Below are positions 25,456 through 28,614 of a stretch of DNA of 64,000 nt, one piece after another. How positions within the stretch are numbered: position 1 is the first letter of the stretch; each line of letters opens with the position of its first letter. A program made the position numbers and the translations under genes. Source of the stretch: Roseburia sp. 499. GTDB taxonomy: Bacteria; Bacillota; Clostridia; Lachnospirales; Lachnospiraceae. Below the pieces are notes generated by a model. That model saw only the letters and a list, made by a program, of their open reading frames with translations, did not search any database and was not told the DNA's origin. Location: positions 3,100,001-3,164,000 of the forward strand of contig NZ_CP135164.1 of NCBI RefSeq assembly GCF_001940225.2, in the 5' to 3' direction.

Positions 25456-26292
25456 ATGTATACAGGAATTGTAATTGTTCCCAAAGCAACACTTTATGAA
25501 AATCCTACCAAAGAAACAGTCTCTGACGAATTGCTGTCCGGCTGGCTCGTTACTGTCGTGCAGGAACTGGGCAGATTCTTAAAAATCGTTACTGACTATG
25601 GCTATTCAGGTTGGCTGGAAAGACCTACAATATGCAAAATATCTCCGAAATCATTGAAACGCTGGCGGGAAGCTCCTACTGCAGCGCTTTTATGTAGAAA
25701 AGCAACCGACCTACTAAAAACGCCAAAGGTTCAGGCTCCTATTTTATCTACTCTTTTTATGGGTAGTCGGGTGATGCTATGCGGCAATGCATTAGATGGT
25801 TGGCAAAAAATACGAACGGCTGACGGATGCTGTGGCTATGTTCCAGCCATCTCGCTTTTATCCTCTACTTGTCAGGAACCTGGTTCCTTTGACTCCCAGC
25901 ATAATGATGAATGGAATATCCGCTCCTGTATTCTAAACTATGCCATGTCATTTTTAGGCACGCAGTATCGCTGGGGCGGAAAAACTGCCATGGGGCTCGA
26001 CTGTTCCGGCCTTACTTTTATGAGTTACTATATGTGCGGCATTGTGATTTATCGGGATGCGATAATAAAGGAAGGTTTTCCGGTACATGAAATTCCATTT
26101 TCCTCTATAAAACCTGCTGACCTGTTATATTTTCCCGGTCATGTGGCTCTTTATCTTGGAAATGGAAAGTATATTCACTGTACCGGAAACCTCAGTAGCT
26201 TTGGCTGTGTCATTAACAGCCTGCGCCCGGAAGATAATGATTACCGGGCTGATTTGGCAGAGAGTTTAGTGGCTGTGGGGAGTGTGTTTTAG
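25456..26292 (+). CDS. NlpC/P60 peptidase with two SH3-like domains, no signal peptide
   Basis: In this 278-residue protein, residues 1-60 and about 75-135 form SH3-like domains. The NlpC/P60 domain (about 150-278) has the catalytic Cys in L-D-C-S-G-L and His in P-G-H-V-A-L. Layout resembles YkfC, a γ-D-Glu-diamino-acid endopeptidase releasing L-Ala-D-Glu from muropeptides. The lack of an export signal and the adjacent M19 dipeptidase suggest cytosolic muropeptide recycling (inference). Its last four bases overlap the convergent small gene that follows. Confidence 0.88.
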   Translation: MYTGIVIVPKATLYENPTKETVSDELLSGWLVTVVQELGRFLKIVTDYGYSGWLERPTICKISPKSLKRWREAPTAALLCRKATDLLKTPKVQAPILSTLFMGSRVMLCGNALDGWQKIRTADGCCGYVPAISLLSSTCQEPGSFDSQHNDEWNIRSCILNYAMSFLGTQYRWGGKTAMGLDCSGLTFMSYYMCGIVIYRDAIIKEGFPVHEIPFSSIKPADLLYFPGHVALYLGNGKYIHCTGNLSSFGCVINSLRPEDNDYRADLAESLVAVGSVF

Positions 26293-26465
26293 TTTTCCGT
26301 TGTTTCTAAATTCTCCAACGCATACTCACACGCCTGAATTACAAATCCCGAAAAGGTTACATCATTTTCTTGTATCACATCATTGATTCTCTCTACCAAT
26401 GGCAGAGGGAATCTTATTGTTTTATTCTCTGTTTCTTTTTTATCTGATTTGATTTGAAACGCCAT
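26289..26465 (-). CDS. Small ribbon-helix-helix-like protein
   Basis: The 58-residue product has a Lys-rich start, then T-I-R-F-P-L-P-L-V-E-R-I (β-strand plus helix) and FSGFVIQACEYALENL (second helix). This is the pattern of Arc/CopG-type ribbon-helix-helix DNA-binding or antitoxin proteins. The ATG at 26465 lies 9 bases after AAGGAGG; a GTG upstream overlaps the ribosome site. It faces a promoter carrying four TGCAT repeats, which such dimers could bind. Assignment is by motif only. Confidence 0.65.
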   Translation of the reverse strand: MAFQIKSDKKETENKTIRFPLPLVERINDVIQENDVTFSGFVIQACEYALENLETTEN

Positions 26466-26517
26466 TTCCTGCACCTCCTTCTACCTTACAATACTAATTC
26501 TCATTTTCTTTGTTTTA

Positions 26518-26562
26518 TGCATTGCATATTGCATTGCATTTGTATTGCTTTCGTGGTAAAAT
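26518..26562 (+). promoter_or_regulatory. Promoter with TGCAT repeat array
   Basis: The decamer TGCATTGCAT occurs twice (26518-26527 and 26530-26539) separated by AT, giving four TGCAT units. The last unit supplies the -35 TTGCAT (26534-26539). TAAAAT at 26557-26562 is the -10 after 17 bases and is preceded by TGG. The divergent ribbon-helix-helix gene begins 53 bases away. Tandem short repeats over a -35 are typical targets of such regulators. Confidence 0.6.
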
Positions 26563-26592
26563 GCAGTTTAAAAAGACACGGAGGATAATTCA

Positions 26593-27075
26593 ATGTAAAA
26601 AACTTTACAAAATGGATTAAAAATAATTTGCAACATATTAGACAACGAACAAAAAGAAATTTTCCAATTATTAAATGCACGTCTTTCCCCTAATCAAAAA
26701 TCAACTCTTAAATGCAATACTTTACAACTAAGACAGGGTTGCAAGAATGCCTATGTGGATTACTCGGCTTATTTCTGGATAACTATTGCAGGTGCTCATT
26801 CCACCTATCGGATTACACTGTTTTATACTGATGCAAATACAGAAAACGGTAACTTCCGTACACAGCTTGGAAAAATCCAATTTTGGAAAGATATCCACTA
26901 TACCGACGAAGATTCTATCGGTTCCCCAAATTACAAATCCCCTGATGGTCATTGGTCACTTTATTCCGAAAACAGCCATGACCCTCATTTAAAAATTGAT
27001 GAAAATGGCTATTCTGCACAGGCAGTAATAGATAAATTTATGGCTTTCCTTAAGGAAAACAACGAAACCATATAG
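26593..27075 (+). pseudogene. Unknown gene A, interrupted at codon 2 (ATG-TAA)
   Basis: GGAGG sits 8 bases before ATG at 26593, but the next codon is TAA. The same frame then stays open for 159 codons (KTLQNGLKIICNILDNEQ...), ending at 27075. A single base change from AAA, CAA or GAA would explain the stop. The first usable in-frame alternative start is GTG at 26755, which would leave a 106-residue protein lacking the N-terminus. The predicted product is soluble with aromatic-rich strands; I recognise no family. It is the first gene after the TGCAT promoter, followed by unknown gene B. Confidence 0.55.
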
Positions 27076-27126
27076 AAACTCTACACTTTTTAATACAAAA
27101 GGCGATAAAAAAGGAGCACACAAATT

Positions 27127-27715
27127 ATGAAGGAAAAATTTAGGAACTTAAACAAGAAGCAACAAGTCTCAAATTGAAGCTATTGTATTATCAGAAGAGA
27201 TAAAAGAAAACAAAGACGAATTAAGCAAATTAAAAGAACAGTTAAATACTATTTTAACTAGTTTAAATGAAAATAAAGATAATATCGAGGAAGAACATTA
27301 CACTGAATTGACTGAAATGGTAAATAATAAAATTACTGAAATTGATACTTTAATTGCTGCTATCGAGCAAAAAGAAACGGAGGAATTAGCAAACGATGAC
27401 TTTGAAGTTCCAACTCTTCCTACACCTACAGAACCTTGGCCGGCATATTTGGAAGTAAGGTTCGGAGCTGATCCAGGAAAAGTAAATGGTATTGGCTGGT
27501 ATCATGGCTCTTTACATTATATTTGGACATGTACGGATACTATGACAGGTGAATATAGATGGTTCAATGATTCAATGCAGCCACCTGCTTTCTTATCTCA
27601 GAGTGAAATAAATACAATAAGAGATATTGTTTATAGTTATCCTGGACCAAGTGGTGAAGGAACTCCTGGAGAAGAAAGAACTATTGATTATTGGGTTTGG
27701 GGCGCAAATTATTAA
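27127..27715 (+). pseudogene. Unknown gene B, one-base frameshift at codon 14
   Basis: AAAGGAG precedes ATG at 27127. The frame reads MKEKFRNLNKKQQ then stops after three more codons. Removing one base (the G at 27166) joins it to a frame open to 27715, giving about 195 residues. Residues 1-95 form a Lys/Glu coiled coil; the rest is a Trp/Tyr-rich domain after a T-L-P-T-P-T-E-P-W-P linker. No ATG lies in the second frame before 27317. The family is not recognised. A clean terminator follows. It may be an inactivated gene, a recoding event or a sequencing error. Confidence 0.5.
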
Positions 27716-27721
27716 TATTTT

Positions 27722-27747
27722 AAAGAGGTCTTTGCGACCTCTTTTTT
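27722..27747 (+). terminator. Terminator after unknown gene B
   Basis: AAAGAGGTC and GACCTCTTT (9/9) flank a five-base loop, with TTT following. Confidence 0.9.
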
Positions 27748-27783
27748 CTCTAAAATTGCATTCCAAAATGACCTATTTTCCCA

Positions 27784-28614
27784 TTACTTCCAGTATTTCT
27801 TCACATAATCCTCAGCTTCCTCTTCACCTAGAGAAAACTTTTCTTTTATCTTTTGCAACGTATCCTCTTGTGAAATCTGTAGCTCACAAAATGATTCTAC
27901 TAATGCCTGTATTCCTTGTTCTTTCCCCTTTTCAATACCTATTTCAAGAATGTTCATCTGTATCGCCTCCCATTCTTCGGATTCCTTTACTTCCGACACA
28001 ATATTGTCAAGTTCTAAAATGCGCTTATCCTTTACTAGTATATTCGGATTCTCTAACGTTGTTTCTTTCATATATTGTAACAAACTTACCAATTCTTTGG
28101 AACCCTTTTTACTGGACATATTCAAGAAAATCTTGGTAGTTCCATCTTCCAAGTGCAATCCTTCCACTTCTTCACACTGCTCTGTAAATGTATATTTTGC
28201 CAAATCCTTCTTAAAAATATCCTCTTGGGTAATAAAAATAATTACAGTAGACGGTAACTCTTTGTATTTTGTTTCTTTCCCCGATTTTAATATCGGCGTA
28301 TCCAACATCCCCTGATAATAGCGAGAACGTTTAGGAATATTATCACTGCTGCTATCATTTTGCATTTCCATATTAAATTGCCGATTATTTTTGTCCTTTG
28401 CCCAGGCATCCAGGCGAATAGCTCGTTTCCCTGAACGATTCAGTATCACCTGCTCCACCTTTACTTCTTCCAGTTCCAGATTTTCTTCCTCCAGAATAAT
28501 ACTGAGTGTACATTCATACGCACGCTTGTTCTTCATGACAGATAGAAACAAAGCAAAATCACTCAGATTAAACTGATACTCTGTTGGAAATACATTTTTT
28601 GTGTCTTTCTCCAT
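27784..28614 (-). CDS. Rpn family recombination-promoting nuclease/putative transposase
   Basis: The 276-residue PD-(D/E)XK nuclease-like protein shows an N-terminal DFALFLSVMKNKRAYECTLS region and the core R-L-D-A-W-A ... F-N-M-E-M-Q with Asp and E-x-Q catalytic positions. A charged helical C-terminus (about 210-276) ends EDYVKKYWK. Rpn proteins stimulate recombination in E. coli and are often multicopy in Lachnospiraceae. No inverted repeats or target duplications are seen, so it is not an intact insertion sequence. It lies at the edge of the accessory patch. Confidence 0.88.
   Translation of the reverse strand: MEKDTKNVFPTEYQFNLSDFALFLSVMKNKRAYECTLSIILEEENLELEEVKVEQVILNRSGKRAIRLDAWAKDKNNRQFNMEMQNDSSSDNIPKRSRYYQGMLDTPILKSGKETKYKELPSTVIIFITQEDIFKKDLAKYTFTEQCEEVEGLHLEDGTTKIFLNMSSKKGSKELVSLLQYMKETTLENPNILVKDKRILELDNIVSEVKESEEWEAIQMNILEIGIEKGKEQGIQALVESFCELQISQEDTLQKIKEKFSLGEEEAEDYVKKYWK

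Follow-up and report, generated by a model that had tools for sequence, protein, structure and literature searches.

A small regulator of ribbon-helix-helix type, a tandem operator and a broken divergent gene pair in Roseburia sp. 499, a probable case of a widespread unit with variable cargo

Results

An accessory block between an NlpC/P60 peptidase gene and an Rpn-family gene

The window analysed here, a stretch of 64,000 nucleotides from Roseburia sp. 499 (contig NZ_CP135164.1, positions 3,100,001 to 3,164,000), carries at 26292..27784 an accessory block of 1,493 bp that consists of a small ribbon-helix-helix (RHH) gene, an operator-promoter region and two genes, A and B, which point in the opposite direction. 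The block is bounded on the left by a gene for a protein with SH3 and NlpC/P60 peptidase domains (25456..26292, forward strand), the stop codon of which overlaps the stop of the RHH gene, and on the right by an Rpn-family PD-(D/E)XK gene (27784..28614, reverse strand). The sibling species G320 shows the empty site: its NlpC/P60 region (71% identity) and its Rpn-tRNA stretch (84%), in which the Rpn gene is also present, lie about 51 bp apart. Genes A and B were found in one of the 29 genomes of the genus, that of the window, and are missing from the other 28; they occur in 1 of 299 genomes of a sample of the family, and A occurs in 1 of 391 genomes of a sample of the class. An earlier note on this DNA, made from the sequence alone, had called the region an accessory module, and the empty site as well as this distribution bear that out. 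Taken by itself, the locus is a modest accessory block in decay.

In the sibling genome G305 the Rpn gene adjoins a MarR-family gene and a DUF6198 gene, and RHH, A and B are absent there (L005, G305:C39, 1-1303). The Rpn side in G305 is probably the same site, with the NlpC/P60 gene on another G305 contig, and the intergenic NlpC/P60-Rpn site may be a hotspot. By eye, Rpn genes or short open reading frames (ORFs) resembling an Rpn C-terminus were also seen near several RHH loci (window 27784-28614; L024, L053, L064), where they may simply be abundant neighbours.

The 58-residue regulator

The RHH-type protein of 58 amino acids is encoded on the reverse strand at 26289..26465 (ATG at 26465, stop at 26289) behind the ribosome site AGGAGGTG, which agrees with the RHH-like protein divergent from a promoter that the earlier note had described. 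A score of 32.8 bits (cutoff 30) places it in the YlcI/YnfO family (NCBIfam NF041551). Its top match in PHROGs is phrog_949, a family of unknown function (E 8.5e-07), followed at a distance by the Arc-like phrog_582 (E 0.0022) and a HicB-like phrog (E 0.012); Pfam and PADLOC gave no match at E <= 1, and the sequences of solved structures in the PDB gave none at E <= 10. In an alignment of 28 of 81 regulators, picked for variety, residues K10, E11, E13, K15, R18, F19 and P20 are invariant in all 28; they are located around the presumed DNA-contact strand. The window protein is intact and retains every one of them.

Operator and divergent promoter

Four TGCAT units (26518, 26523, 26530 and 26535) upstream of the regulator gene make up two perfect TGCATTGCAT decamers 12 bp apart, just as first noticed from the sequence. 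This tandem operator occupies 26518..26539 and reads ATGCAATGCA from the RHH side. In shuffled versions of the window the 22-bp pattern is expected 0.06 times with up to three mismatches. Across the 3.38-Mb single-contig genome the double decamer occurs once with no mismatch, three further sites have two to three mismatches, and the GCAATGC unit pair has one occurrence. The operator itself is intact and is followed by a degenerate further unit, GTATTGC (26542..26548; GCAATAC from the RHH side), of a type that is common upstream of the relatives.

The fourth TGCAT is located inside the -35 element of a predicted forward promoter, TTGCAT-N17-TAAAAT (26534..26562), so that the -35 overlaps the operator as the note had proposed. 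A simple promoter scan did not list this promoter and returned five promoters in comparison to a shuffle mean of 5.8; the support for it is thus comparative and comes from the related loci described below. Downstream follow the ribosome sites of A (GGAGG, 26580..26584, forward) and of B (AGGAG, 27112..27116, forward), both of which had been recognised correctly. Of the clean terminator claimed at the end of the unit, the hairpin with its T run was found (27722..27744, forward), yet one such element against 1.0 expected does not exceed chance.

Genes A and B are broken

The same note had spoken of repaired proteins A and B, and lesions are indeed present in both genes. In gene A (26593..27075, forward strand) the ATG is immediately followed by a stop (ATG-TAA at 26593-26598, the stop being codon 2), after which 26599-27075 is open for 158 codons and a stop. 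Phase variation of A by slippage was rejected on reading the sequence, because no codon separates the ATG from the stop. Gene B (27127..27715, forward strand) is frameshifted: the frame of its ATG at 27127 closes after 16 codons and differs from the long frame at 27152-27715, which codes for a coiled coil and then a C-terminal domain without known relatives. An intact natural relative of A exists in P0001, a protein of 160 residues and 96% identity with an ordinary start. Another relative, P0002, is a form of 106 residues that fits the broken version and represents three sequences on 14 contigs; judged by its length, the genomes concerned would share the lesion of A. Because this form recurs on 14 contigs, the lesion is probably no assembly error. 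The sole relative found for B, P0003, is short like B, and a search for distant relatives of B returned none.

Searches of 5.8 billion proteins yielded two relatives of A with the single sequence and six with a profile. The A family comprises small proteins in which the region around ITLFY-D and TQ-G-IQFW forms a conserved core. Pfam, PHROGs, NCBIfam and PADLOC contained no family of weight for A; in particular, there was no match to a known toxin family in Pfam, PHROGs or NCBIfam and no PADLOC match at all at E <= 1. The matches of B are weak and lie over its coiled coil (best PHROGs match a head protein, E 3.4e-05; best PADLOC match, E 0.0021). PDB sequences gave no match of weight for A, and neither A nor B matched phages or plasmids or had a confirmed match in viral contigs. 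The AlphaFold model of A is poor (pLDDT 51), and Foldseek, which the note had proposed as a check, found nothing at E <= 0.001 with it; for these two reasons we claim no fold for A. The model of B is reliable over a helical hairpin only, so that neither model is good enough for classification. A resemblance of B to a lipoprotein C-terminus in locus L055 (E 0.41) was dropped after phmmer gave no support, and a match of the A profile in L009 (E 0.002) coincides with the Rpn match of that locus.

One convincing match to A was obtained in all fetched loci, namely in L055 from another Lachnospiraceae genome (34% identity over 99 residues, E 9.5e-13), the protein of which is also P0004 of the profile search. 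Here the divergent promoter of the genome's own RHH gene, a member of the same family, leads to the A relative as its second gene. The note had stated that homologues of A situated away from the regulator would speak against a module; this sole distant A relative with visible context lies behind such a regulator. It also carries an in-frame stop (L055:1826-1374, reverse strand), and the promoter-proximal ORF of that operon starts like an A-family N-terminus, a combination that suggests repeated decay of the A family. P0007, another A relative, starts with MQIAIQYALQEAERFDIICAKGGG, which is nearly the translation of the operator and promoter of L055 and suggests that the P0007 gene likewise starts directly behind such a promoter.

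One might ask whether A and B are broken at all, or rather translated by means of start-site choice or programmed frameshifting. Both frames are open for more than 470 bases, and the in-frame stop of the L055 relative would fit such a mechanism, but the ordinary start of the 160-residue relative P0001 makes this explanation very improbable in our judgement. The opposite view, that the whole block including the regulator is neutral debris in which nothing is regulated, takes its strength from the two broken genes and from the lack of A and B in the other 28 genomes of the genus. It does not account for the intact RHH gene, the intact operator and the retention of all residues that are invariant in the 28 aligned members, and we regard it as unlikely.

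The operator is conserved upstream of related regulators

A scan of GTDB contigs identified 157 relatives of the regulator, of which the best 80 (63-87% identity) were kept; they come from Lachnospiraceae, Enterococcus, Streptococcus, Lactobacillus and others, with the reservation that many of the genomes are metagenome-assembled and single taxon labels may be wrong. The 150 bp upstream of these 80 genes and of the window gene were inspected (a shorter stretch in L057 and L095). The hexamer TGCAAT/ATTGCA is present in 79 of the 81 regions in comparison to a mean of 28.6 and a maximum of 41 in 200 shuffles, and the octamer in 67 of 81 (shuffle mean 5.1, maximum 13), where the shuffles were generated by first-order Markov resampling, which is not an exact dinucleotide shuffle, and the contrasts overstate independence because the loci are related to one another and were chosen as the top 80 of 157. 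Repeated sites upstream of the regulator gene are accordingly conserved across the relatives. The spacing between TGCAAT units peaks at 12 bp (22 cases) and at 24-25 bp (33 cases), and the repeats are most frequent at positions about 60 and 35 bp ahead of the RHH start.

In 15 more distant RHH relatives, in which the DNA-contact stretch differs, the octamer was found once and the hexamer four times, as expected if operator and contact strand go together. A divergent ORF is nevertheless present in 11 of these 15 octamer-poor loci; the divergent layout is therefore not unique to the TGCAAT operator. In L032/L042 (G308), L033 (G306) and L034 (G309) a more distant RHH occurs in tandem pairs with another, AT-rich upstream pattern, and several of these loci also face a divergent ORF.

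A divergent gene faces the regulator, and its product varies

Of the 80 loci kept from the 157, 74 offer no less than 330 bp of upstream sequence, and six were dropped as too short. In 64 of these 74, an ORF that has a ribosome-site motif starts 60-320 bp from the RHH gene in the divergent direction (median distance 165.5 bp); the same rule is satisfied by 24 of 134 controls, which are the other ORFs of these loci. The remaining ten loci had no divergent ORF by this rule. With a second gene-calling rule, restricted to upstream gaps of 100-350 bp (which left out eight RHH loci), 63 of 66 regulators had a divergent neighbour as compared to 14 of 55 controls. A strict promoter in which an operator repeat forms the -35 (TTGCAW-N16..18-TAWRAT) is present in 29 of 75 upstream regions including the window, against a shuffle mean of 0.65 and a maximum of 4. 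The arrangement first read from this single locus, in which an accessory unit diverges from a small regulator across a tandem operator, thus recurs among its relatives at the level of operator, layout and promoter.

The 64 divergent (cargo) proteins fall into 44 BLAST clusters, and their Pfam content is spread over 53 families, the commonest of which, two leucine-rich-repeat models, are found in four proteins. Export-type N-termini, recognised by a simple rule on hydrophobicity and lipobox, are present in 42 of the 64 (29 of 44 with one protein per cluster) compared to 55 of 171 control ORFs, and absent from 22; a lipobox is present in 20 of 64 and in 11 of 171 controls. In 29 of 53 cargo genes with a visible end, a second ORF follows closely in the same direction. 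A family of 66-residue proteins provides the first cargo gene in L072, L088, L100 and L105; the second genes differ there and some look pilin-like by eye. Neither P0001 nor the long frame of B has an export-type N-terminus, and A and B are therefore not of the commoner cargo kind.

These data bear on the possibility that the operator serves autoregulation of the RHH gene only and that the divergent gene is a chance bystander. The preferred positions of the repeats, close to the RHH start, and the change of cargo from locus to locus would be in line with this assumption. The prevalence of the divergent layout over controls, the coincidence of an operator repeat with the cargo -35 in more than a third of the regions and the enrichment of export-type N-termini would not, and we consider a bystander rather unlikely, hardly more probable than the neutral debris discussed above.

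The module had also been compared to a toxin-antitoxin, bacteriocin or defence system, in which the RHH protein would be an antitoxin-like repressor and A or B the effector. Such a function is suggested by a small RHH gene adjoining small uncharacterised genes and by the HicB-like match. In type II toxin-antitoxin systems with an RHH antitoxin, the antitoxin is a small autoregulator that shares its operon with the toxin. The window protein resembles such antitoxins in size and type, but it is divergent from A and B instead of co-operonic with them, and its partners are unrelated across loci and often of surface type. PADLOC is blank for the regulator and A and touches only the coiled coil of B, and broken versions of A and B are tolerated. 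We therefore abandon this part of the earlier interpretation as having very little likelihood. The profile matches of the five proteins tested (the three of the block and the two flanking ones) included no bacteriocin exporter or immunity gene.

Cargo turnover at fixed sites

Similarity of the RHH-side flank of at least 80 bits was found for 26 pairs of loci (two weaker pairs were left unclassed). Seven of them involve L092 or L095, for which too little upstream sequence is available, leaving 19 informative pairs. Cargo-side sequence is common to 16 of these and absent in three. Two pairs show a replacement of the cargo at an identical site: in L059/L102 the similarity extends from 69 bp upstream, inside the operator, through the RHH gene and resumes in the right flank, while it ends on the cargo side, and in L096/L104 it stops close to the start codon of the cargo. 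Of the 16 pairs with common cargo-side sequence, 15 are alike and L120/L123 differs by one extra first gene. Compared with L121/L123 (94-99% identical around it), L120 has an additional gene for a lipoprotein of 118 residues, located 130-560 bp upstream of the RHH gene, between the leader of the putatively regulated promoter and the next gene; gain and loss are indistinguishable in this case. The pair L072/L097 was dropped as a cargo swap, as only one gene is common and has the opposite orientation. Turnover of cargo at fixed sites does occur, and it is the minority case, given that 15 of the 19 informative pairs still share their cargo-side sequence.

Discussion

We consider it likely that the block is one case of a widespread unit, in which an autoregulated RHH repressor and its tandem operator are placed over the promoter of a divergent variable-cargo gene. 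The operator would consist of tandem TGCAATGCA sites that overlap the promoter of the cargo gene or operon. We infer that the regulator binds this DNA, with dimers that probably stack along the sites at the 12-bp spacing. Bound in this way it would cover the -35 of the cargo promoter and at the same time lie over its own putative promoter region, and expression in both directions would be kept low until an inducing signal lifts the repression. The cargo would be mostly unrelated between loci and often exported, as exemplified by lipoproteins, leucine-rich-repeat and SH3 proteins. In the window, A and B presumably entered between the NlpC/P60 and Rpn genes, and both have been broken since.

MetJ, Arc and omega-type RHH repressors bind closely spaced repeated sites cooperatively as dimers and act on fixed targets. 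The window operator shares the close spacing of repeated sites, and it differs from theirs in sequence and in the distance between the sites, as well as in the variable nature of what is presumably controlled. The YlcI/YnfO family, to which the window protein belongs as a small RHH-type protein, is known here as a sequence model that has neither an operator nor a divergent cargo attached to it. phrog_949 is similar in being the best PHROGs match, and here too a difference is apparent: the only phage record that matches the RHH protein itself (57.9% identity, in an unverified, unannotated faecal phage record) has no divergent ORF and no hexamer by the rules used. The RHH protein had no match in plasmids, and viral contigs gave 112 pattern matches, none of them confirmed. 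ArtA of plasmid pSK41 is described as an RHH repressor that binds pseudo-palindromic promoter sites and has a conversely oriented neighbour gene; acting at six sites on the plasmid, it governs genes for conjugation and segregation (PMC6540685). The placement of an RHH-type regulator beside a conversely oriented gene is thus common to both systems; the window genome, unlike pSK41, has one perfect operator, and the gene linked to the regulator varies between loci. Among the papers listed by full-text searches of open-licence literature, none describes the RHH-operator-cargo unit in its title or in the opening of its abstract.

A more far-reaching reading, which we put forward tentatively and regard as possible though doubtful, is that the RHH gene and the operator-promoter form a conserved expression site of Firmicutes, in which unrelated, mostly envelope or secreted genes are inserted directly behind one repressed promoter and exchanged at that place. 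Each lineage would then keep one replaceable surface gene under tight control, and A-B would be a rare cytoplasmic-looking variant.

The main value of the present analysis lies in the family, in which a miniature regulator and its operator are conserved and the cargo, often exported, varies. If the proposed unit is real, a short motif and a regulator of 58 residues would predict which surface genes of many gut Firmicutes share a switch, and bacteria for which genetic tools are scarce would gain a repressor-operator pair that is simple to test. The presence of unrelated lipoprotein and leucine-rich-repeat genes beside one tiny protein would be explained as well.
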